Below are positions 5,277-55,771 of a stretch of DNA of 64,000 bases, in pieces (the stretch's first letter is position 1; every line of letters begins with the position of its first letter). A program made the translations under genes and the position numbers. The stretch covers positions 2,666,001 to 2,730,000 of the forward strand of contig NZ_CP102293.1 of NCBI RefSeq assembly GCF_025152575.1. Reading direction: 5' to 3'. Below the pieces are notes generated by a model. It was not told the DNA's origin. It saw only the letters and a list, made by a program, of their open reading frames with translations, and did no database searches. This DNA comes from Subdoligranulum variabile. Its GTDB lineage: Bacteria > Bacillota > Clostridia > Oscillospirales > Ruminococcaceae.

Positions 5277-5376
5277 TTGACAAAGGCACTTGAAGTGCGT
5301 ATAATAATGACTGAGCAATCCAACTACTCATAGTATATCTTGAATTGCTCATCCTGTCAAGGGGCATGAGTAGTTG
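5277..5376. promoter_or_regulatory. Divergent promoters and operators of the element's switch
   Basis: Plus-strand promoter: TTGACA at 5277-5282, 17-base spacer, TATAAT at 5300-5305; the spacer contains the palindrome GCACTTGAAGTGC. Minus-strand promoter: TTGACA (plus TGTCAA 5355-5360), 17-base spacer, TATACT (plus AGTATA 5332-5337). Two nested inverted repeats cover it: GAGCAAT 5313-5319 with ATTGCTC 5344-5350, and CAACTACTCA 5321-5330 with TGAGTAGTTG 5367-5376. The promoters face away from each other, so this looks like the main on/off switch bound by the ImmR-like repressor. Confidence 0.75.
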
Positions 5377-5490
5377 TACACGAAAAAGTTACATCTTTTG
5401 AGCAGTTCAAATGGACAGGCATTTATGCTGCCGAAGATCATCCGTACCGGCATACACCGGTATGAGGGAACAGGAGTGAGAAAAACGGAA

Positions 5491-5751
5491 ATGGCTACAC
5501 AGTACAGAAAAGCATACGTCCCGGTTACGCTGGATGTGGACAAGGAGGGGGCAATCCTTCCTCGCCTTATCTGGTGGGACAACGGTGTAATCTTTCAAAT
5601 CGACCAGATTCTATACAAATGCCGCGCCACATCCAAAAAGGTTGGGGGCGGAGGCATCCGTTACACAGTTCAGATTCGCGGAAAGGAGTCATTTCTTTTC
5701 CACGAAGGAGACAAGTGGTTCGTCGAAGCAAAGGAGGACAACTGCTCATGA
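5491..5751 (+). CDS. Small conserved element protein (86 residues)
   Basis: The ORF is open from 5374, but the protein most likely starts at ATG 5491 (MATQYRKAYVPVTLDVDKEG), with AGGAG some distance upstream. A GTG at 5476 is a second choice. It is a small beta-rich protein; the patterns LIWWDNGVIFQIDQILYKC, GGIRYTVQIRGKESFLF and KWFVEAKE recall small proteins often found beside UmuC-like polymerases in Clostridia, though no polymerase is visible here. Its stop overlaps the next ATG (ATGA at 5748), so the two are co-translated. Function unknown. Confidence 0.65.
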   Translation: MATQYRKAYVPVTLDVDKEGAILPRLIWWDNGVIFQIDQILYKCRATSKKVGGGGIRYTVQIRGKESFLFHEGDKWFVEAKEDNCS

Positions 5752-6476
5752 TTTTATCCCAGCGCCAACTTGAAGAAATTGCAGCCTCAACAACGAAGGA
5801 CTTCAACCGGTTCTTTTTCGGGGATGAGGCTGACAAGCCCGACCGATCAGCTTTGCCAACACCCATTGATCAGTTTGCAAAGAACTATCTCGGTCTTCGC
5901 GTATCATTCGCCCGTCTCTCGCCGGACGGAAGCATCTGCGGTGTCACTGCCTATGCCGACACTGAGTACAAGATCACGGAACTTGGTATTACGCGCACAC
6001 TGGCTTTGAAGCGTAATCAGGTCATCTTGGACGAGAGCTTCATTCGATCCGGAAACGTGCAGCGGCTCTGCGCCAAGCGCAGATTTACCCTTGCCCACGA
6101 GTGCGCCCATCAGATTCTCTTCCAACTGGAATCGGAAGAGGTAAAGGCGTCCTGCGAAATGAAATATTCCGCACGGACAGCCTATACGCCGCGAGAGCTG
6201 AAAACCCGCGAGGACTGGAACGAGTGGCAAGCAAATGTCTTGGGCGCGGCGATCCTGCTTCCTCAAAAAGAGGTTGACCTGGCAATGCGTCGGTTTGCAG
6301 AAACGTCGCTGATCAATTACGAGGGGAGGTATTCGTATGGTGATCACTTAACGCTGCGCCTTTTCTGCCGGTTGTTCGGTGTCTCCAAGACAACGGCGTC
6401 TATCCGCCTTCGTCAGCTCGGCTACATGGTAGATCGTCCATTCAGTGAGTATGTTGACCCATTGGAGGTGTGGTAA
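5748..6476 (+). CDS. Second ImmA/IrrE family metallo-endopeptidase
   Basis: A 242-residue protein with HECAH at residues 117-121, preceded by RRFTLA as in IrrE/ImmA proteins, and a third-ligand helix near WNEWQANVLGAAILLP (E160 region). A C-terminal helix-turn-helix-like stretch (RLFCRLFGVSKTTASIRLRQLG) is also visible, so it may both bind DNA and cut a regulator. The start is ATG 5748, overlapping the preceding stop. It sits under the plus-strand promoter, on the side that should be repressed in the integrated state, unlike the ImmA at 4188. Confidence 0.85.
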   Translation: MILSQRQLEEIAASTTKDFNRFFFGDEADKPDRSALPTPIDQFAKNYLGLRVSFARLSPDGSICGVTAYADTEYKITELGITRTLALKRNQVILDESFIRSGNVQRLCAKRRFTLAHECAHQILFQLESEEVKASCEMKYSARTAYTPRELKTREDWNEWQANVLGAAILLPQKEVDLAMRRFAETSLINYEGRYSYGDHLTLRLFCRLFGVSKTTASIRLRQLGYMVDRPFSEYVDPLEVW

Positions 6477-6718
6477 TGAAGAGAGCATCCATTCGGGTTC
6501 AGGAACCGACGCCGGAGCTGATCGAAAAAATCCGCAGGGCAAGAGTTGCCATTTCCCAGCAGAAGCCCCGATACCTGAAATGTCCCTATTGTCAGCATAA
6601 TGCCATTGCTGTCTACGAAGACACGAGAGGTCATGTAGAATCAAAGTGCAAGAAATGCGGGCGGATCACAGTCTTTGATGTGCTGAATATGAGAAGACTG
6701 CGACCGCGTACCAAGTAA
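6476..6718 (+). CDS. Small zinc-ribbon protein
   Basis: An 80-residue basic protein with a two-pair zinc ribbon: CPYC near residue 39 and CKKCG about 20 residues later. ATG 6476 shares a base with the upstream stop (TAATG) and has GGAGG at 6464-6468, so it is coupled to the second ImmA/IrrE gene. The basic ends (MKRASIRVQ and MRRLRPRTK) suggest nucleic-acid binding, as in Com-like zinc ribbons. Precise role unknown. Confidence 0.7.
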   Translation: MKRASIRVQEPTPELIEKIRRARVAISQQKPRYLKCPYCQHNAIAVYEDTRGHVESKCKKCGRITVFDVLNMRRLRPRTK

Positions 6719-6774
6719 GAACCAGAGGACAAGCCTCTGTTCTAAAATAAAATATATGTCATAGCTGAGCTGTG

Positions 6775-6879
6775 GAGCCGCCTGATAGGTGAAGTCATCC
6801 TAATGCCGCATGAGACAGAGTGTAATTACTCTGTTTTATCGGCATGGGATTCAAACCTCACCGTCATGCGGCTCTTTTT
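6775..6879 (+). ncRNA. Structured leader RNA ending in a terminator-like hairpin
   Basis: Five nested helices can be read: GAGCCGC 6775-6781 with GCGGCTC 6868-6874; GGTGA 6788-6792 with TCACC 6858-6862; ATCC 6797-6800 with GGAT 6847-6850; ATGCCG 6803-6808 with CGGCAT 6840-6845; ACAGAGT 6815-6821 with ACTCTGT 6828-6834. The outer helix is followed at once by TTTTT. The whole therefore looks like a long rho-independent terminator or attenuator just upstream of the sigma-like gene at 6927. A small 6-bp hairpin (6723-6739) precedes it. No known riboswitch class is recognised. Confidence 0.7.
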
Positions 6880-6926
6880 CTGTCTTCACCCTTCCCGCTG
6901 CTCCCGCGCAGCGGAAAGGATGAACA

Positions 6927-7409
6927 ATGAAAATCCCTAAAACCCCTATCGCGTTCGATTACGACCTCTGGACTACGGAGGACGGCAAGTGCATGGTTCG
7001 CGTGAAACGAACCGGCGAAGTTTCCGAGGTTGACCGCAAGGTTATGAGAATCCTTCGCGCGGAGGAAAAGCGGATCAGACGCTCGTATGGCTCTGACAAC
7101 ACCTCTGAGAATGAGGACGGCGCAGAGAAAATTTCTGATACCGTGCTGTCCCTTGACGCTATGCCGGAGGACGATGTGAAGTCCGCTGCATGGCTGGCAG
7201 ACTCCCGCGACTGCATGGAGGAACTGATCACCGCCCTCAAAGAGAAGGAGCTTCTTTCCATTCTGACCGAGAAGCAGCGCGAATTGTATCTTGCGATGAC
7301 CCGTGAAGGACTGACTCTTCGAGAGTTTGCCCGAAGGAAAGGCATCGGCATCAGAGCTGCATTTGACCTCAAAGCAGCGGTGCAGAAAAAATTTCAAAGA
7401 ATTTTTTGA
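6927..7409 (+). CDS. Sigma-70 region 4-like regulator of the element
   Basis: A 160-residue protein. The last third (SILTEKQRELYLAMTREG, then LREFARRKGIGIRAAFDLKAAVQKKF) is a helix-turn-helix like sigma region 4; no region 2 is present. The N-terminus (FDYDLWTTEDGKCMVRVKRTGEV) and RAEEKRIRRSYGSDN match the small sigma-like proteins placed before recombinase operons in Firmicutes mobile elements. It probably activates the recombinase or transfer genes. Start ATG 6927 follows GGAAAGGA. It lies 47 bases after the structured RNA, which may set its expression. Confidence 0.78.
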   Translation: MKIPKTPIAFDYDLWTTEDGKCMVRVKRTGEVSEVDRKVMRILRAEEKRIRRSYGSDNTSENEDGAEKISDTVLSLDAMPEDDVKSAAWLADSRDCMEELITALKEKELLSILTEKQRELYLAMTREGLTLREFARRKGIGIRAAFDLKAAVQKKFQRIF

Positions 7410-7920
7410 GCGGTACTCAACAAACGGCAAAAAGATGTCCGTTGTAAAGTGAAAGGGTCAATCAGACCACTTCACTGCTCCTTGAAAACTGAATAGTTCA
7501 GTGCTGCGGATCTTTCCGCTTCTGCGAAGCAACACAGCTTCCGACGCCAAGACCTCCCGAAAGGGAGTGAGCGACCTCCGGAGAGCTATAACAGTCGTGT
7601 GGTGCGGCTGCTTGCGACGATGCAGATGCCGGGTATAATGATACTTCCGTCTTTTCTTTGAATGGGCGGCTCGGAGCGTTCCTCGGAGGGGTGAGAGTCC
7701 CATGATACCGATTGACCATTGGTAGTCCGCAGCATTCCCGGAACTGCAAAGTTCTTCTGGCAGGGGCGCGTGCTGCAAATATGCCGGACAATGAAACAAA
7801 CCCAAAAGAAACTTACTATATAGTTTCAGGATGAAAACTATGTGGCAGGGTATCTTCACAAGATGCTCTGCCATATCCTTTTGTCCTGAATATTTTCACG
7901 AAACAGGAGGTGCTTAGAAT
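7410..7920 (+). other. Non-coding segment with several hairpins and a promoter
   Basis: No convincing coding frame is present in these 511 bases. A promoter TTGCGA 7612-7617, 16-base spacer, TATAAT 7634-7639 is seen, as well as many short self-complementary stretches. Near the end, a clear hairpin pairs TGGCAGGGTATCTT 7843-7856 with AAGATGCTCTGCCA 7860-7873 (one or two mismatches) followed by TCCTTTTG. The segment may make an RNA of about 230 bases or be a long leader of the next gene. Confidence 0.5.
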
Positions 7921-8376: not shown

Positions 8377-10011
8377 ATGCCAGACAAGGTTTACCGCACG
8401 GCGATCTACTGCCGTCTGTCCCGTGAGGATGGAGACAAAGTAGAAAGCAACTCCATCGCCAGCCAGAGAGCCATCTGCGAGGACTACATCGCAAGGCATG
8501 AGGATTTGGAGCTGGTCTGTGAGCCGTTTGTGGATGACGGTTACAGCGGCGTTTCCTTCAATCGTCCTCAGTTCAAAAAGCTGGAAGAGGCAATCCGCAA
8601 GGGTGCGCTTGACTGCATTGTGGTCAAGGATCTCAGCCGCTTCTCAAGAAACTACATCGACGGCGGGCGCTACATTGAAAAGATTTTCCCGCAGCTCGGC
8701 ATTCGCTTCATTGCAATCAATGATGCGTATGACAGTCTGACCGGTGATCCGCAGTCCGACTCCTTTGTTATCCCGTTCAAAAACCTGATTAACGATTCTT
8801 ACTGCAAGGACATCTCCATGAAAATCCGAAGCAGTCTGGAAGTCAAGCAGAAGAGCGGTGAGTTCGTCGGCTCGTTCGCGCCTTACGGCTACATGAAATC
8901 GCCGGAGAACAAAAATCAGCTCATCGTGGATGAAGCGGTCAGCGAATATGTGCAGATGATCTTTTCCATGTACAAGGACGGCTTCTCCATCGGACGTATT
9001 GCAAAGCGTCTGAACCAGATGGGCGTCCTGTCCCCAATGGAATACAAGCATTCCGTCGGCGTAAAGTTCGATACCGTCTTCAAAACCGGCGATACCGCAA
9101 AATGGACATACAAAGCCGTCCAGCGTATTCTCACCAACGAGGTTTATATCGGCGTTCTGGCTCAGGGCAAGCGAGGCACTCCCAACTACAAAGTCCGCGT
9201 CGTGAAAAGCAAGGATGAATCCGAGTGGGTCAAGGTTGAAAACGCGCATGAAGCTCTTGTGTCCTACGAGGACTTCATGGCAGTCAAGGTCATGATGCAG
9301 CGGGATATGCGCTGCTCACCCGATCAGGATGAAGCACACCTGTTTTCCGGTTTCCTGTTCTGCGGAGACTGCCAGCAGCCAATGATCCGCAAGACTGTCC
9401 CGTCGAAGACGAAAAAGTATATCTACTACGTCTGCTCCACCAATAAGCACAGCCGGACGTGCAGCCCGCACAGCATCGCCGCAAAAGAGGTTGAGGAAAA
9501 GGTCTTCCGTGCCATCCATGATCAGATCGAGCTTGTCATCAATCTGGAACACGCGCTTGCGATGATAGAACGGCTTCCGTCTCAGAGCCGTAAGGCTTTC
9601 AATTACGAAGCTCAGATCACCAAAATCGAGGAAGAGATTGAACGGTACCAAAAGCTCAAGCTGGGGCTTTACGAAAACTTCATCGGCGGCGTCATTGATA
9701 AATCGGAATACTTCGAGTTCCGCAACAGCTACACCAAAATCATTGAGGGCAAGCAGGACGCGCTTCTGCGGGTTAAAAAAGAAATGAAGCAGACGGTGAC
9801 AACCGGTACGACTGAACGAAACTGGGTGACGCTTTTCAAGCAGTATGAAAACGTCGAAGAGCTGAACCGCCGTGTGCTGATGTCGTTGGTTGACCGCATC
9901 CTGATTCACGAAAACCATGCAATCGAAATCGTCTTCAAATATAGGGACGAATACCAGCAGACGCTTGAATACATTCTCGGCTATGCCGACGAACTGGATA
10001 TTGCCGTATAA
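8377..10011 (+). CDS. Large serine recombinase 1
   Basis: A 544-residue site-specific recombinase. The N-terminal catalytic domain (about 5-155) has the nucleophile S15 in IYCRLS and the arginine loop VVKDLSRFSRNY. A recombinase domain (about 165-300), a zinc ribbon (CGDC near 328 with a later C pair in YYVCSTNKHSRTC) and a coiled-coil arm (about 400-440, ITKIEEEIERYQKLKLGLYENF) follow, as in integrases of the TndX type. It is the first of three in one operon, 15 bases before the second. All core catalytic residues are visible. Confidence 0.93.
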   Translation: MPDKVYRTAIYCRLSREDGDKVESNSIASQRAICEDYIARHEDLELVCEPFVDDGYSGVSFNRPQFKKLEEAIRKGALDCIVVKDLSRFSRNYIDGGRYIEKIFPQLGIRFIAINDAYDSLTGDPQSDSFVIPFKNLINDSYCKDISMKIRSSLEVKQKSGEFVGSFAPYGYMKSPENKNQLIVDEAVSEYVQMIFSMYKDGFSIGRIAKRLNQMGVLSPMEYKHSVGVKFDTVFKTGDTAKWTYKAVQRILTNEVYIGVLAQGKRGTPNYKVRVVKSKDESEWVKVENAHEALVSYEDFMAVKVMMQRDMRCSPDQDEAHLFSGFLFCGDCQQPMIRKTVPSKTKKYIYYVCSTNKHSRTCSPHSIAAKEVEEKVFRAIHDQIELVINLEHALAMIERLPSQSRKAFNYEAQITKIEEEIERYQKLKLGLYENFIGGVIDKSEYFEFRNSYTKIIEGKQDALLRVKKEMKQTVTTGTTERNWVTLFKQYENVEELNRRVLMSLVDRILIHENHAIEIVFKYRDEYQQTLEYILGYADELDIAV

Positions 10012-10026
10012 AGGAGGGATGAGCAA

Positions 10027-11733
10027 ATGGCAAGAAAAAGCAGAAAACAAATTGCAGTCGAAGAGCCGGTTATCGAACCTGTTTCTTCCGAGGTCTTCTC
10101 AACAGCCATCTATGCCCGTCTTTCCGTTGAAAACAGCGGCAAGTCCGAAAAGGTGGATGTCATCGCAAATCAGATTGAGATTTGCAAGTCCTACATTGCA
10201 GAGCGTCCCTACCTGAATCTGATAGATACCTATGTGGACAACGGACGAACAGGAACGGTTTTTGATAGACCGGAGTTCAACCGGCTGATGAACGACATCC
10301 GCACCGGCAGGATCAAGTGCCTTGTAGTTCGTGATCTCAGCCGGTTCGGGCGTGACTACATCGAGGCTGGAACCTATCTGGAACGGGTTTTTCCGCAGAT
10401 CGGGCTTCGGTTTATCGCTATCAAAGAGAACTACGACAACTTTGATACGGACGGCTCCGGCGAAAGCCTCATCATCCCTCTGCAAAACATGATCAACACC
10501 CTTTACTCGAAGGACATCTCCCGCAAGGTTTCTACTGCGCTCAAAGCACAGATGGAAAGTGGAGAGTTCAAGAAGCGCAATCTCCCGTATGGTTATCGCT
10601 GGGATGAAGAACACAGCAATATGGTTTTCGATGAAGAAACCGCACCGATTGTCCAGAAGATTTTCCAATGGAAAATTGAAGGATTGTCCCTTCCTGCGAT
10701 TGCAGACCGGCTTGATGCAATGAACGCGCCCAATCCGGAGTTTCAGAAGTATCAGGTCGGCGTCCGCACAGGCAATGCTACGGCAAAGAAGATTTGGAAC
10801 AAGTCTTCACTCACTACCATTCTGGATAATCCCCATTACGTCGGAGATACCGTTCTCGGACGGACGCTGAACGCCATCTACAAGGGCGTCAAGAATCAGC
10901 ATATCGACCGCGAGGAATGGATTGTTTTTCCCAATACTCACGAGGCGATTATTTCCCGTGAGGACTTCCAAAAGGTACAAGAGCTGCGCGACGCTGCTGC
11001 AAGGACAAGGATTGAGAAGATGGAGCGCACGGAGAAAATCCGTGCTACACTGATCAATCTCTTTGAAGACAAAATCGTCTGCGCAGACTGCGGCAGGAAG
11101 CTCTATTTCCATCGCAAGCGCGTTGACAAGCGCAAGGACGGCGCATGGTACGCCTTCTATGAGTGCAGCTCATCCGTCAAGCGCGGCAATCTCTGTACGC
11201 CGCACTATACGCGGCAGGACAAACTCGAAGCCGATGTGCTTGCGGCGATCCAGCTTCAAGTCAAGGCGGCTCTCAATTACGATAAGCTGTTTGCCAAGCT
11301 GAGAAACAGCGAAGGCGAACGCAGCATCCGCGATCAGCAGAATGCGCTCATTACAAGCCTGAATCTGAAACTCAGCGGTATTTCCAAGAAGCGTACCCGT
11401 CTCTATGAGGACTTCACGGAAGGCATTCTCGATGAAGAGGAATACGCCTTTGCCAAGAAAGCCTACGATGAGCAGTATGCCGACCTTTCCCGGCGGTTGG
11501 ATGAAGCGGTTCAGCGGAAGGTAAAGTTTGCCGAGGCAATGTCCGAGGATAACAAGTGGCTCACGCTGATGAAATCCGTCAGCGGTGCAACGATGCTCTC
11601 TCAGGAGCTGATTGACGAGTCCGTAGAGCTTGTGAAAGTCTATGAGGACGGCTCAATCGAGCTGGTCATGAAATACGGCGATATTTACGCTCTGACCGTT
11701 CAGAGTATCAAGGAAGTACAGGAGGCGATGTAA
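10027..11733 (+). CDS. Large serine recombinase 2
   Basis: A 568-residue recombinase with a longer basic N-terminus than its neighbours, which puts the nucleophile at S33 in IYARLS. The arginine loop is VVRDLSRFGRDY. A recombinase domain, a zinc ribbon (CADC, then YECSSSVKRGNLC) and a coiled-coil arm (residues about 430-490) follow. It has its own ribosome site (AAAGGAGGG before ATG 10027). Sequence differs clearly from recombinases 1 and 3, so the trio is not a recent duplication. Confidence 0.93.
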   Translation: MARKSRKQIAVEEPVIEPVSSEVFSTAIYARLSVENSGKSEKVDVIANQIEICKSYIAERPYLNLIDTYVDNGRTGTVFDRPEFNRLMNDIRTGRIKCLVVRDLSRFGRDYIEAGTYLERVFPQIGLRFIAIKENYDNFDTDGSGESLIIPLQNMINTLYSKDISRKVSTALKAQMESGEFKKRNLPYGYRWDEEHSNMVFDEETAPIVQKIFQWKIEGLSLPAIADRLDAMNAPNPEFQKYQVGVRTGNATAKKIWNKSSLTTILDNPHYVGDTVLGRTLNAIYKGVKNQHIDREEWIVFPNTHEAIISREDFQKVQELRDAAARTRIEKMERTEKIRATLINLFEDKIVCADCGRKLYFHRKRVDKRKDGAWYAFYECSSSVKRGNLCTPHYTRQDKLEADVLAAIQLQVKAALNYDKLFAKLRNSEGERSIRDQQNALITSLNLKLSGISKKRTRLYEDFTEGILDEEEYAFAKKAYDEQYADLSRRLDEAVQRKVKFAEAMSEDNKWLTLMKSVSGATMLSQELIDESVELVKVYEDGSIELVMKYGDIYALTVQSIKEVQEAM

Positions 11734-13341
11734 ATGAGCAAGGAATACAACATTGGCATCTACATCCGCCTCTCAATGGCTGATGAAGATACCGGCTATG
11801 GCAGCAAGGCGGAAAGTGACAGCATCGGCAACCAGCGTATGCTCATCAATCGCTTTCTCGACAATCATTTGGAGTTGTCTCACTGTCAGCGGTCTGAGTT
11901 TGCGGATGACGGTTATACCGGCACGAACTTTCACCGTCCTCAGTTCACGCAGATGATGGAGAAGGTCAAGCGCGGCGAGATTAACCTGATCTGCGTCAAA
12001 GACTTTTCCCGCTTTTCTCGTGACTACATTGAAACGGGAAACTATCTGGAATGCACTTTTCCATTCATGGGCGTCCGCTTTATTTCCATCAACGACGGCT
12101 ATGACAGTGACGATTACAAAGGCACAACGGGCGGTCTGGAAGTGGTTATGCGCAGCATCATCTACGCCGCATACAGCAAAGACCTTTCCGTAAAGACCAC
12201 ATCGGCAAAAATCCAGATGATGAAGCAGGGCAAGTATGTCGGTGGCTACGCCCCATACGGCTACGTCCTGCATCCCACCATTCGGAACAAACTTGCCGTA
12301 GACCCGGAGGCGGCTGATGTGATCCGTCGTATTTTCCGCGAGGCGCTGGAAGGCAGCAACACCTCTCAGATCGCCCGCAGCCTGAATGATGACGGCATCC
12401 CGACGCCGGGGCAATACTTCAAGAGCAAGCATCCCGACAAGAAGAAGTTCAGTAACATGAGCGAGAAAATCAGTTGGGAAACCGTGATGGTCTATAACAT
12501 CCTCAAAAACCTTGTTTACACCGGAACACTGGTCAGCCGCAAAATGAAGTCCTGCGGTGTCGGCTCAAAAAAACGTGTTGTCAATGAGCCGATTATCGTA
12601 GAAGGTACGCATGAAGCGATTATCAGCAAGGAAGACTTTGAGCTTGCTCAGAAGGTCATTCGAGGCGGAGGACGGAATCCCACGCGCAAGCAGCATGACT
12701 ATCCGCTCAAGGGACTCGTCCGCTGCGGTAACTGTAAACGTGCTATGACACGCCGAAAGAACAAGGCTGGCATTCGATACTTCCAGTGCATTCACTCGGT
12801 CAACAACGGAAACACAGACTGTCCGGTTGGCAGGAGCTTTCCGGAAATGGATATTGAGAAGGTTGTCTTCCATGCCCTTACTCAGTTTCTTGCTTTGGCA
12901 CAGAAGGAAGCAATACAGAACCGCGAAGTCGGTGATCTGCGGAAATCTGCCATCAAGGAATGTGCTGATAAAATCCGCACTCTGCAAAAGCAGAACGAGC
13001 AGCACAAGGCGTCCAAGCTGAGGCTCTACGAGAAGTATGCAGCCGGAAGCATCACGAAGGAGGCGTACATTCAGCAGAAGGCGGCAGCGGATGTGAAGAT
13101 TGCTGAAAACGATGGAGTAATCCAGCGCAGTCACGAACGGATGAAGGAGCTTGACTCCGAGACCGCCTGTTCAGATGAAAAGCTGGATGCGGTCTGCGAA
13201 CAGTACGCCGACTGCAAAGCTCTGACCTATGAGCTGACCCACGCATTCATTTCTGCGGTCTACATTTACGATCTTGACAACATAGAAATCGTCTGGAAGT
13301 TCAAGGACTTCCTCACTACATCAGAAGGAGAAGCCAAATGA
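11734..13341 (+). CDS. Large serine recombinase 3
   Basis: A 535-residue recombinase with nucleophile S14 in IYIRLS, arginine loop CVKDFSRFSRDY, recombinase domain about 165-310, zinc ribbon (CGNC, then YFQCIHSVNNGNTDC) and coiled coil (about 405-450). ATG 11734 abuts the stop of recombinase 2, with AGGAGG overlapping that gene's end. Three intact but divergent recombinases in one transcript suggest they act together or divide integration and excision. Confidence 0.93.
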   Translation: MSKEYNIGIYIRLSMADEDTGYGSKAESDSIGNQRMLINRFLDNHLELSHCQRSEFADDGYTGTNFHRPQFTQMMEKVKRGEINLICVKDFSRFSRDYIETGNYLECTFPFMGVRFISINDGYDSDDYKGTTGGLEVVMRSIIYAAYSKDLSVKTTSAKIQMMKQGKYVGGYAPYGYVLHPTIRNKLAVDPEAADVIRRIFREALEGSNTSQIARSLNDDGIPTPGQYFKSKHPDKKKFSNMSEKISWETVMVYNILKNLVYTGTLVSRKMKSCGVGSKKRVVNEPIIVEGTHEAIISKEDFELAQKVIRGGGRNPTRKQHDYPLKGLVRCGNCKRAMTRRKNKAGIRYFQCIHSVNNGNTDCPVGRSFPEMDIEKVVFHALTQFLALAQKEAIQNREVGDLRKSAIKECADKIRTLQKQNEQHKASKLRLYEKYAAGSITKEAYIQQKAAADVKIAENDGVIQRSHERMKELDSETACSDEKLDAVCEQYADCKALTYELTHAFISAVYIYDLDNIEIVWKFKDFLTTSEGEAK

Positions 13342-13733
13342 AAGTATTTCTTTATACCCGCGTTGCCTGTGCGGATCAGCTTGCGGCAGCAGACCAGCGG
13401 GAAGAGCTGGAACGCTATGCGAAGGACAAAGGCTATGAGGTGGCTGCTGCTGTGGCGGCAGACGGCATCTCCGGCGTCCATACGGAAGGTATCATGAACT
13501 TCCTGCTGAACGAAGCCAAGCGTCAGGACATCGGTACGATCCTCACCCGCGACACCTCGCGAATCAGCCGGGACACTTCCTCTTTCATGAGGTTTGAGCG
13601 AAAGTTTCGGGAGAACGGCATTCGGTTCGAATATCTGTCCAAGCCTGACAACGAGCTTCCGGTCACTCCGATGATGGAGGCATTTGCGGCGGCGTATAAG
13701 AAGCGTCGCACAAAGAACGGCACAAGAGCATAG
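13338..13733 (+). CDS. Resolvase-domain protein lacking the catalytic serine
   Basis: A 131-residue stand-alone resolvase N-terminal domain. Where active family members have YxRxS, this one reads LYTRVAC, so the nucleophile position (residue 10) is alanine. The arginine loop (TRDTSRISRD) and the overall strand-helix order remain. There is no DNA-binding domain. ATG 13338 overlaps the stop of recombinase 3 (ATGA), so it is made with the recombinases. It cannot cut DNA by the usual route; a regulatory or structural role with the active recombinases is inferred. Confidence 0.75.
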   Translation: MKVFLYTRVACADQLAAADQREELERYAKDKGYEVAAAVAADGISGVHTEGIMNFLLNEAKRQDIGTILTRDTSRISRDTSSFMRFERKFRENGIRFEYLSKPDNELPVTPMMEAFAAAYKKRRTKNGTRA

Positions 13734-13741
13734 AGAAAACG

Positions 13742-13781
13742 CAAGCCGTTCACGGGTGGTTGTCCACCTATGAACGGCTTG
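13742..13781 (+). terminator. Long hairpin closing the recombinase operon
   Basis: CAAGCCGTTCA 13742-13752 pairs with TGAACGGCTTG 13771-13781, and inside it GGTGG 13755-13759 pairs with CCACC 13764-13768. An AT-rich tail with a run of seven T follows at 13795-13801. It works as a terminator for the recombinase operon and lies about 30 bases from the inferred element end. Confidence 0.75.
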
Positions 13782-13811
13782 TAAATTCTCAAAATTTTTT
13801 TAGTCCCTACT

Positions 13812-15112
13812 TGACACAAGAAGACCTTTCCCGTCTGGGGCGCAACTATGCCGAGACCGGGCGATATCTGGAAGAAATCTTCCCGCGTTTGGGAATCCGG
13901 TTCATCGCCGTAAACGATCAATACGACTCTGCCAGCAACACCGACAGTGTCCAGCAGATGGCCGTATTCAAAAATGTATTCAACGATTTATATGCCGCCG
14001 ATGCCAGTGCCAAGGTGAGGACCTCTCTGGGCATCCTCAAGCGGCAGGGCAAATTCCTGGGGCGGCAGGCGCCCTATGGGTACCGCATCGACCCCGATGA
14101 CAGATATCATCTTCTGCCCGATGAGGAGACAGCTCCCACGGTGCGGCGCATCTTTGCGCTGTTTCTGGGCGGAGCCAGCCGTACCCGGATTGCCAAGGTC
14201 CTCAATCGGGAGGGGATTCCCTCGCCGGCAGCCCAAAAGCAGATGACCGACAAGAGCCGCCGTTTTACGGGGCTGTGGAATGCGGAGACCATCCGGCGAA
14301 TCCTGAGCCATCCGGTGTATCAGGGCGATATGGCCCAGCAGTTCACCCGCACGATCAACTATAAGGTGCACAATCGCCGCCGGGTCGATCCCGAGGACTG
14401 GATCGTGGTGAAAAACACCCATACGCCACTGGTCAGCCGGGAAGACTTCGCCCTGGCGCAGCAGATGCAGAAGGTCCGTACATACGAAACCACCGACCAT
14501 CCCCATCTGCTCACCGGCATTGCCTACTGCGCCGACTGCGGCAGCCCCCTCTATGCCAAAAAGAGGGGAAAGTACTGGTATCTGAATTGCTATGGATACT
14601 ATCGCGACCCCACAGCACATCACTGTACCTCGCACAGCATCCGGGAAGATGTGGTGGTGCAGGCGGTGGTGGATGCGCTGCGTGCATTGGCACAGAATCA
14701 GGTGGATTCCAAGGCGATGGCCCGCAAGCGTGCGCAAAAGCAGCAGGGACGGCAGGATCTGAAAAGCCGCCGCAGCAAGCTGGAACAGCAGATGGAATCA
14801 GCACGCAAAACCCGGTTGGGTGCCTACAAGGATAAAGCCGCCGGGATCTTGCGTGAGGATGAGTTTTCCTATATCTCTCAGAATCTGCGCAAGGAGGAGG
14901 AACGCTGTCAAAAGGAACTGGAACAACTGGCACACTTGGAAAACGATCTGGACCAGACGGATGCCATCGAAAAAAAGATCCGGACGTTTCTGCAATTCGA
15001 TCATCTGGAAAAAGGACAGCTGCAGCAGCTGGTACGCCGTGTGGAGGTGGATGCCCACAAGCATATTACCGTTACCTTTAATTTCATGGAGCCGGGGAAA
15101 AAGGCTGATTGA
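13812..15112 (+). pseudogene. Large serine recombinase missing its 5' part (interrupted target gene)
   Basis: The recognisable protein begins abruptly at LTQEDLSRLGRNYAETG, in the arginine loop of the catalytic domain; the first 80 or so residues with the nucleophile serine are absent. The rest is normal: recombinase domain, zinc ribbon (CADC, then YLNCYGYYRDPTAHHC) and coiled coil. An open frame reaches back to an ATG at 13760, but those codons lie in the hairpin and T-run. I infer that the element on the left inserted into this gene and that its 5' part lies beyond the left end. Confidence 0.8.
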
Positions 15113-37159: not shown

Positions 37160-37696
37160 GTGACGAACACGAAGAAACAACAGACCGGCTGTATGTCCGG
37201 CTGCTGCGGCGAGGAACACTTCGGCGCGCTGGTAGGCCAGACCTTCCGCGTGATCCGCCGCGCCATGGATGCGCGCATTGCGGCCGAGGTGACGCCCGAA
37301 CTGACGGGTGTCCGCGGTATGCTGCTGGGAGAAATCGTCCGGGCCAATAAGGAAAACCGGGACGTTTACCAGCGGGATGTGGAGCACTGGATGCAGATCC
37401 GGCGTTCCAGTGTGACGGCGGTCCTCCAGGCGATGGAGCAGGACGGGTTCATTACCCGTTGTTCCGTAGAGCGTGACGCCCGCCTCAAGAGGCTGAATGC
37501 CACGGCCAAAGGCGTTGCCTACCATGAGCGCATCCGCCTGAGCATCGACAACTTCGAGCGGGAGCTGCAGCGCGGCGTCGAGCCGGAGCGGCAGGCCGTG
37601 GCCCGGGCGGTGCTGGAACAGATCCTGGCCAATGCGCACAGTCTGGCAGGCGAAACACGGCCGGCATCGGAAAGCACGGCCGCAGAAAATGGCTGA
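37160..37696 (+). CDS. MarR-family regulator with N-terminal cysteine cluster
   Basis: A 178-residue winged-helix regulator; the DNA-binding part includes VEHWMQIRRSSVTAVLQAME with QDGFITRCSVERDARLKRLN. The N-terminus holds CMSGCCGEEH, a possible metal or thiol sensor not usual for MarR proteins. GTG 37160 is the start, with GAGGGGGCAGG before it. It leads an operon with a heterodimeric multidrug-type ABC exporter and should repress it until an inducer binds. Confidence 0.87.
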   Translation: MTNTKKQQTGCMSGCCGEEHFGALVGQTFRVIRRAMDARIAAEVTPELTGVRGMLLGEIVRANKENRDVYQRDVEHWMQIRRSSVTAVLQAMEQDGFITRCSVERDARLKRLNATAKGVAYHERIRLSIDNFERELQRGVEPERQAVARAVLEQILANAHSLAGETRPASESTAAENG

Positions 37697-46039: not shown

Positions 46040-46305
46040 CTTTTTGACAAACAAAACGGCCGCCCCATGAACGATCATGGGACGGCCTGAAAAAATCAAG
46101 TCGCGGTACCACCCAAGTTGCCTTCCGACGAAGGCCTCTTTGCGGCAGAGCAAACACCCCGCCTGCCCGGATAACGGCGGCAAACCCGTGTACAGCTACC
46201 CCAAAGGCTCACCGTACCTGCTCAAAAGCGACAGCTGCTTTGCCTGCTTTGCCGGACTCGCACCCGACGCCGGCTCTCTGCAAAAGCGGAACAAAGCGCA
46301 CTCTT
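46040..46305 (-). promoter_or_regulatory. T-box leader of valS
   Basis: On the minus strand the T-box sequence GGGTGGTACCGCG is at 46114-46102, followed by a terminator (46087-46058, stem GGCCGTCCCATGA with TCATGGGGCGGCC) and T-rich tail. Upstream, AGAGAGCCGGCGTC and GAGTCCGGC form the base of stem I. Uncharged tRNA-Val should stabilise the antiterminator and let valS and the HD hydrolase be read. I could not place the specifier codon with certainty. Confidence 0.93.
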
Positions 46306-46329
46306 TTTCATAGCATTTATATATTAGGT

Positions 46330-50612: not shown

Positions 50613-52144
<1,532 letters not shown>

Positions 52145-52285
52145 GGGAGTCAGACATTCAGTCAAAGCTGGTCTTTGAGTGAATGGACAGGGAAACAAGT
52201 TTCAGTATTGTTCAATTTTGAGGGCCGCTGCAAAGCGAACCTCAAAGCATAAGGGACAGCGAAACCCGAAACGCTGTAAAGGCGC

Positions 52286-52361
52286 GGGGGTATAGCTCAG
52301 TTGGGAGAGCACCTGCTTTGCAAGCAGGGGGTCAAGGGTTCGAATCCCTTTATCTCCACCA
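52286..52361 (+). tRNA. tRNA-Ala (anticodon TGC)
   Basis: A full cloverleaf with acceptor GGGGGTA/TATCTCC, anticodon loop TTTGCAA, T-loop GGTTCGAATCC and encoded ACCA. It sits in the 16S-23S spacer. Confidence 0.97.
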
Positions 52362-52364
52362 TTT

Positions 52365-52441
52365 GGGCTGATAGCTCAGCTGGTTAGAGCACTCGGCTGA
52401 TAACCGAGAGGTCGATGGTTCGAGTCCATTTCAGCCCACCA
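52365..52441 (+). tRNA. tRNA-Ile (anticodon GAT)
   Basis: Acceptor GGGCTGA/TCAGCCC, anticodon loop CTGATAA, T-loop GGTTCGAGTCC and encoded ACCA; three bases after tRNA-Ala in the rRNA spacer. Confidence 0.97.
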
Positions 52442-52640
52442 CTGGTTATCCAGTGTGCTGGGTAACCCAAATCCTTATGCAAGGAAGTACCTTGAAAACT
52501 GAATATAGAACTGCGAAATGAGATTTTAAGCTAGTAAAATTCCTGATTTTTTAATAAAATCTATAATTTCACCAAGCGGTAAAATCTCGTTGGCAAATGG
52601 AGAATCTGAAAAGAGATATGTTTATCGAGAGATAAACAAC

Positions 52641-55471
<2,831 letters not shown>

Positions 55472-55566
55472 CATCTTGATCAGATACTCTGTTTGCAAAG
55501 CGGTTCGATATTCAGTTTTGAGGGTACATCCTCAACAAAAGAGAAGCATGACAAAGGTCATTGCAT

Positions 55567-55684
<118 letters not shown>

Positions 55685-55696
55685 TCTCTTTTATAT

Positions 55697-55771
55697 GGCC
55701 CGTTGGTCAAGCGGTTAAGACAGCGGCCTCTCACGCCGTTAACGTGGGTTCGATTCCCGCACGGGTCACCA
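55697..55771 (+). tRNA. tRNA-Glu (anticodon CTC)
   Basis: Acceptor GGCCCGT/ACGGGTC, anticodon stem GCGGC/GCCGT with loop CTCTCAC, T-loop GGTTCGATTCC and ACCA. It ends the rRNA operon and is followed by a terminator (55773-55805). Confidence 0.95.

Follow-up and report, generated by a model that had tools for sequence, protein, structure and literature searches.

A conserved structured RNA, which we call hairpin B, lies between the gene for a small zinc-ribbon protein and the gene for a sigma-like regulator in a mobile-element-like region of Subdoligranulum variabile, and recurs in mobile elements of other gut Clostridia. It was examined within a window of 64,000 nucleotides (the whole stretch of DNA that was analysed; contig NZ_CP102293.1, positions 2,666,001 to 2,730,000), and coordinates below are counted from the first letter of that window. 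The best reading of its role is that of an attenuator.

An unassigned hairpin with the structure of a terminator

Hairpin B, recognised by folding and alignment, is an unbranched structured RNA of about 100 nt on the plus strand (6775..6874). It is preceded by a 5' flank conserved in our alignment A10, TAGCTG(A/T)GCTGTG (6762..6774, plus), and followed directly by a terminator-like U-tract (TTTTT, 6875..6879, plus). The minimum free energy of 6765-6890 is -59.4 kcal/mol against a shuffle mean of -31.76 (sd 3.64; z = -7.59), a value that none of 200 dinucleotide shuffles matched, and this confirms the hairpin drawn here by the preliminary description of the sequence. The fold of 6775-6874 holds 42 pairs when G-U pairs are counted. 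Counted by eye, its uninterrupted Watson-Crick helices (GAGCCGC/GCGGCTC, TGA/TCA, GGTGA/TCACC, ATGCCG/CGGCAT and ACAGAGT/ACTCTGT) sum to 28 pairs, close to the 29 reported earlier. The first of these, 7 bp long, is the basal stem, after which comes the TTTTT. Hairpin B thus has the structure of an intrinsic terminator, a stable GC-rich hairpin with a U-rich tract directly 3', at which transcription would be expected to end. It did not appear in the output of a simple terminator scan, whose criteria are a short loop and one stem that leads straight into the T-run. A smaller hairpin, A, can be seen by eye at the end of the zinc-ribbon gene (6718..6743, plus), and several homologues, not all, have small hairpins resembling it by eye.

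The comparison with Rfam leaves the RNA unassigned, as had been claimed. At the gathering score Rfam 15 did not match hairpin B, the only match in its neighbourhood being the pemK RNA at 7635-7705, and up to E=10 it returned nothing overlapping 6775-6865 and a chance-level microRNA row from 6866 on the minus strand. We therefore rejected the known Rfam classes, none of which matched. This RNA or module was also undescribed in the titles and abstract openings of the literature searched, a body of text outside which most subscription papers lie.

Hairpin B is conserved as RNA

A covariance model of hairpin B (R1), seeded on 21 sequences (alignment A3), matched 73 plus-sense places, many being identical copies or the same contig repeated; 15 additional rows were the opposite strand of the same palindrome and were not counted. 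The 73 places represent 34 distinct stretches, of which 31, the window included, make up alignment A10. Left out were L019 (cut off), L037 (rearranged, 46 bits) and L040 (close to L005).

Folding gave a single unbranched hairpin of about 100 nt in all 31 distinct sequences of A10. Partners pair in 93.7% of 980 cells, compared with 34-50% in controls slid by 1-3 columns. The sequence of the basal stem does not vary and that of the internal loops hardly does, and the apical stem, which takes 28 distinct sequences among the 31, always pairs and in every one folds better than 198 or more of 200 shuffles. Two-sided changes occupy 10 cells at 5 of 32 pairs, and none of 500 shuffles reached 10 cells. 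Other counts from the same control are less favourable: 36 of 500 shuffles reached 5 two-sided pairs and 248 of 500 reached the number of pair types. The RNAalifold covariation term is just -0.22, with 3 of 24 pairs compensatory. Covariation, proposed earlier as a check on the helices, is thus present at a few pairs and modest overall, because the basal stem and internal loops scarcely vary. A T-run of 4 or more follows the hairpin in 27 of the 31; the run is poor in L003, L025, L059 and L062, and L037 has no U-tract after hairpin B.

The conservation also has a direction. The plus strand out-folds the minus strand in 30 of the 31 A10 sequences, by a mean of 8.5 kcal/mol, and G-U cells outnumber A-C cells by 108 to 25. 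A long inverted repeat in a recombinase-bearing element might have acted as DNA, as a recombination site, origin or operator; this strand asymmetry disfavours a DNA-level palindrome, and the repeat is intergenic and some 7 kb away from where the shared stretch ends near 13824, so that we regard a role as DNA as very improbable. Hairpin B is a conserved RNA: conservation at the RNA level, which the preliminary description had suggested, is borne out by the common fold, the variable yet paired apical stem and the plus-strand preference.

Translation of the same stretch accounts for the conservation less well. In the window, ATG 6803 opens a frame of 45 codons that does pass beyond the T-run, as previously noted. 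GGTGAA ends 9 nt ahead of this ATG and some database proteins use the frame, both of which would suit a leader peptide acting as a peptide attenuator. Across homologues, however, the ATG is kept in 22 of 31 sequences, the frames run from 8 to 208 codons and the length of hairpin B differs out of frame, so that a conserved short open reading frame is absent from the leader. The frame test led us to reject the peptide reading of ATG 6803, which seems hardly credible. By eye, 7 of 21 fetched database proteins (P0003, P0007, P0016, P0081, P0096, P0118 and P0119) begin within translated hairpin B; since the frame is unconserved, the sigma-like protein has probably been annotated too long in these cases. 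The earlier suggestion that such leaders are wrongly fused to proteins in databases was therefore probably right as to the extension, but the extended proteins are sigma-like and not recombinases. This points to an annotation error, in which RNA has been translated as an N-terminal extension.

Hairpin B is tied to an upstream zinc-ribbon gene

The gene ahead of hairpin B (6476..6718, plus) encodes an 80-aa zinc-ribbon protein (CPYC...CKKC) with weak profile matches, which we propose as its trans-acting partner. Upstream of it lies an ImmA/IrrE-type (Peptidase_M78) gene (5748..6476, plus; Pfam PF06114, E=1.9e-5). The AF2 model of the zinc-ribbon protein has a mean pLDDT of 73.3 and a pTM of 0.43, and a Foldseek search with it gave no row at E 0.001 or better.

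A zinc-ribbon open reading frame lies upstream of hairpin B at 70 of the 73 R1 places, and in 31 of the 34 distinct sequences, none of the 73 having been found via the zinc-ribbon gene. It ends 8-47 nt ahead of the start of the conserved RNA at 69 places. L019, which has no upstream sequence, is counted among the 73. L009 (Angelakisella) might have been taken for a loss of the gene; this is wrong, since the gene is there and an insertion of about 2.5 kb separates it from hairpin B. The L009 insert spans 5294-7816 (window 6742-6745), and its 4-base overlap suggests a target duplication. L062 and L063 have hairpin B and no zinc-ribbon gene within 1.5 kb upstream; they are two of the four class-sample genomes with hairpin B, and an apparent gene remnant lies 3' of the hairpin in L063.

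What follows hairpin B is more variable. Mostly it is a gene of the window's sigma-like family, and elsewhere it encodes a weak sigma region 4 (L058), a weak HTH_23 (L087), a protein with no Pfam match (L118) or a Cro/C1-type HTH protein (L004 and L067). The earlier placement of the RNA ahead of a sigma-like gene is thus accurate for the window, but the tie of hairpin B is to the zinc-ribbon gene upstream instead. Hairpin B probably acts as a conditional stop, which the zinc-ribbon protein may control. A ligand-sensing, riboswitch-like leader that controls the regulator without a protein would also sit in a gene-control position and have near-invariant internal loops. Near-universal adjacency to one protein family, with variable genes downstream, argues against it, as do its patchy presence, of the kind seen for mobile elements, and the lack of an Rfam riboswitch match; we consider it quite unlikely.

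A second hairpin class follows divergent zinc ribbons

A profile of divergent zinc-ribbon relatives matched, at E 1e-6 or better, 10 of the 391 genomes in the class sample. Two of these have the window's zinc-ribbon type (G000 and G464), and the eight others are L208-L214 and L228, L210 and L211 being near-identical. The 8 loci of this other class that entered an initial linkage comparison had mostly been found via the zinc-ribbon gene and are not evidence of linkage. In the eight genomes named above, by eye, the zinc-ribbon gene is followed by a terminator-like hairpin unrelated to hairpin B, and the R1 search of the eight loci gave no match. Further 3' come a C-like hairpin (hairpin C is described below), a short open reading frame ending ...YP*, a hairpin over a ribosome site and another gene. 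L228 has a stop inside the zinc-ribbon match.

The 5' arm of the second-class hairpin can pair with 8-15 nt just downstream at all nine loci compared (L208-L214, L050 and L204). For this alternative pairing, 4% or fewer of shuffles are as good in five of the nine and 7-26% in the other four. In 15 family-B loci no conserved antiterminator pairing was found, none falling below 5% of shuffles as good. A candidate between the 5' arm and the downstream sequence of family B (GGTGAAG/CTTCACC) was rejected, being unconserved and matched by 250 of 500 shuffles.

Two loci separate the influence of the upstream gene from that of the downstream gene. In L118 hairpin B goes with the window's zinc-ribbon type, in L209 the zinc ribbon is divergent and the hairpin is another one, and their downstream proteins are 33% identical (E=3e-15). 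With a common downstream family and different hairpins, the class of hairpin follows the type of zinc ribbon and not the controlled gene.

A second hairpin buries the ribosome site of the sigma-like gene

Just 3' of the U-tract, hairpin C (6885..6924, plus) buries the ribosome-binding site of the next gene, a Shine-Dalgarno-like GGAAAGGA (6913..6920, plus). Among 31 loci examined, 30 have a recognised site at this place, and it is at least 70% paired in 29; the site in L058 is less than 70% paired, and L087 has no recognised site there. In alignment A9 (19 loci), 88.2% of the cells of the hairpin C stem are paired against 33-49% when slid. Two-sided changes occur at 4 of 17 pairs, a figure that 36 of 500 shuffles also attain, the observed number of pair types is reached by 385 of 500 shuffles, and G-U cells are not in excess (11 G-U versus 16 A-C).

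The buried site belongs to the proposed gated gene, which encodes a sigma-like regulator of 160 aa (6927..7409, plus). Its profile matches are weak (Sigma70_r4_2, E=0.022, below the cut-off; phrog_1190, E=0.001; NF005385, E=0.019). In the AF2 model the C-terminal half has a mean pLDDT of about 89, and Foldseek rows were mostly sigma factors, the best at E 0.012 and none reaching 0.001; chain 8jzt_A gave a TM of 0.84 to target over 54 columns. The predicted C-terminal half thus resembles sigma region 4, which upholds, at the level of a model, the description of the gene 3' of hairpin B as sigma-like. Across the window protein (6927-7409) and the 16 proteins in alignment A1, the first ~92 residues are strongly conserved and the C-terminal halves are of several dissimilar types, as if, going by the sequences, DNA-binding halves had been swapped.

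The promoter-like sites bear on how this gene could be transcribed. The consensus scan, run on the window alone, found TTGACA-17-TATAAT (12/12; 5277..5305, plus) ahead of the rightward genes, the zinc-ribbon gene among them, and a divergent site (11/12; 5360-5332, minus). These opposite-strand sites (5277-5360) lie between an HTH repressor gene and the ImmA and zinc-ribbon genes, an arrangement like a lysogeny switch. A weak site (9/12, 6726-6753) could start transcription just 5' of hairpin B, and between hairpin B and the regulator's ATG the scan listed no sigma-70-type site.

The weak site, together with an AT-rich stretch just before the conserved 5' end and the conserved terminal hairpin, would fit hairpin B as a small RNA product of about 115 nt that ends at the U-tract and acts in trans or titrates the zinc-ribbon protein. 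By eye, however, a common -35/-10 pair is not seen in homologues, and the regulator would still need transcription through hairpin B; we think this reading doubtful. A somewhat stronger contender, though still an unlikely one, is that hairpin B is no more than a strong, constitutive terminator for the zinc-ribbon operon, that hairpin C folds back and silences stray transcripts and that the zinc-ribbon protein is unrelated to both. The GC-rich base with its U-tract and the ribosome site hidden in hairpin C would suit such an arrangement, RNA binding does not follow from the presence of a generic zinc ribbon, and L062 and L063 retain hairpin B without the zinc-ribbon gene. Against it, the internal loops and 5' flank are conserved beyond a terminator's needs, the hairpin type tracks the zinc-ribbon type and not the downstream gene, and the regulator would be left with no listed promoter-like site after hairpin B.

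Element context and distribution

Downstream of the sigma-like gene is the pemK RNA (RF02913; 7635..7705, plus; 68.4 bits), a possible target region of the regulator, with a promoter-like site from the consensus scan beside it (7612-7639). The pemK RNA reportedly stems from a 2017 catalogue of 224 candidate RNAs. Rfam run on 10 other loci gave pemK RNA in 7, one tRNA and no other match, and it lies in the matching place (window 7585-7715) in L209, L212, L213, L050, L204, L118 and L034. A conserved block around AATGATAC, at the 5' end of the pemK RNA, could be a promoter for the regulator instead of RNA structure. Occurring in the same elements as hairpin B, the pemK RNA is unlike it in sequence, structure and position. 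A DUF6870 gene and three serine recombinases follow the pemK RNA and its promoter-like region; the three tandem recombinase genes (8377..13341, plus; Pfam Resolvase/Recombinase/Zn_ribbon_recom) are the presumed end of the cascade.

Homologues of the sigma-like protein number 614 at an E of 0.001 or below, of which 120 were listed, and public contigs searched with its alignment yielded 33 genomic loci and 13 on viral contigs. R1 matches 43 of these 46 loci, counting the truncated L019 and the weak L037; the three negatives are L033 and L049, which have little or no upstream sequence, and L050, which has another hairpin. Searched with independently of the gene, and under strict filters that lose weak matches, R1 detected the RNA in 10 of 295 genomes sampled from the order, 4 of 391 from the class and 1 of 299 from the phylum, the window's own genome being included each time. 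This scattered distribution is consistent with a mobile element.

Eisenbergiella, Gemmiger, Oscillibacter, Faecalibacterium and, from a plasmid collection, a Vescimonas replicon share 9.6-13.8 kb with the window at about 97% identity. Near 13824 the stretch shared with several of these carriers comes to an end, with a 131-codon recombinase fragment on one side and a 450-codon recombinase-like open reading frame on the other (13338-15112), and so the right end may be in or beside a resident recombinase gene. Elsewhere in the window are a T-box leader (46075-46320, minus), an rRNA operon that contains tRNAs for Ala, Ile and Glu (50613-55771, plus) and a 97-base tRNA-Thr(agt) at 37372-37468, which was called by ARAGORN alone, does not appear in the Rfam scan and is possibly false.

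Comparison with known systems

The arrangement most readily compared is that of com and mom in phage Mu. Com, a translational activator, binds mom mRNA and exposes its start (PMC6483171). As here, a small four-cysteine zinc protein is encoded just upstream of a gene whose start lies in an RNA hairpin. Genes of the com type precede other genes in other phages. In Mu, unlike the window, com overlaps mom (L198, 569-757 and 708-1403), leaving no room for a terminator-like hairpin of ~100 nt. The four cysteines are invariant in a joint alignment (A6) of the Com and zinc-ribbon sets, and hhalign returned a weak match between the two (E=3.1e-4, probability 39%); the zinc-ribbon protein also matched phrog_6417, 'translational regulator', at E=0.016. 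The Com SELEX motif CC(N)2-3GAG, as given in PMC6483171, was found in just 2 of 31 hairpin-B RNAs. An identification as Com by motif was accordingly rejected, and we call the protein a zinc ribbon.

Intrinsic attenuators share with this leader a GC-rich hairpin and U-tract ahead of the controlled gene. They differ from it in that the window's RNA is strongly conserved in sequence, has a second hairpin burying the ribosome site, and comes from a family in which the 15 loci compared gave no alternative antiterminator pairing. In processive antitermination by LoaP, a NusG paralogue acts with an RNA hairpin in cis to let polymerase pass terminators. A cis RNA hairpin paired with a protein would be common to both systems, antitermination being proposed in ours, whose partner is a zinc ribbon and not a NusG paralogue.

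The zinc ribbon also bears some likeness to zinc-ribbon elongation factors of the Elf1 type. It matched Elf1 PF05129 at E=0.0011, below the cut-off; several Elf1/ELOF1 chains are among the first 50 Foldseek rows, all of them short of E 0.001, and 2 of 120 listed zinc-ribbon homologues are named Elf1 by JGI. The likeness is confined to the ribbon and is as weak as that to Com, and we know of no dedicated leader RNA for Elf1. Because the likeness to Com is weak and that to Elf1 equally so, we file hairpin B as a new RNA family and its mechanism as a variant of known leader control.

A model for control of the element

We propose that the sigma-like gene has 6762-6924 as its leader and that this leader forms a two-step gate, consisting of termination and occlusion of the ribosome site, that is opened by the zinc-ribbon protein; we give this proposal an even chance of being right. 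The operon transcript would run through the ImmA/IrrE-type and zinc-ribbon genes, and transcripts passing the latter would fold hairpin B and mostly stop at the U-tract. Those reading through would fold hairpin C, hiding the ribosome-binding site. As zinc-ribbon protein made from the same transcript accumulated, it would bind the leader, most likely at hairpin B with its 5' flank and internal loops, and would let transcription, translation or both go on. With a gate opened in this way, the regulator would be made only once the rightward operon was on, and its targets would then be the promoter region surrounding the pemK RNA and the recombinase region. We infer termination, binding by the zinc-ribbon protein, the direction of control and the effect on excision. 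That hairpin B times the element's exit from the chromosome, an idea already raised in the preliminary description, we infer from gene order alone (regulator, pemK RNA, recombinases).

More broadly, the zinc-ribbon protein and its dedicated terminator-hairpin RNA could form a plug-in control cassette of clostridial mobile elements, inherited as a pair and swapped between downstream regulators, and hence a new protein-RNA system. We advance this only tentatively, thinking it possible and no better than that.

Hairpin B represents a structured RNA family so far unlisted, for which a candidate protein partner can be named. If the gate operates as proposed, it would explain how the regulator and recombinases of these elements are kept silent, and would offer a simple two-component system in which to test an RNA switch driven by a zinc ribbon. 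If the cassette is real, at least two sequence-unrelated RNA classes would each be matched to their own zinc-ribbon subtype, and would represent a new protein-RNA system of antitermination or translational activation that times the start of the element's recombinase programme.
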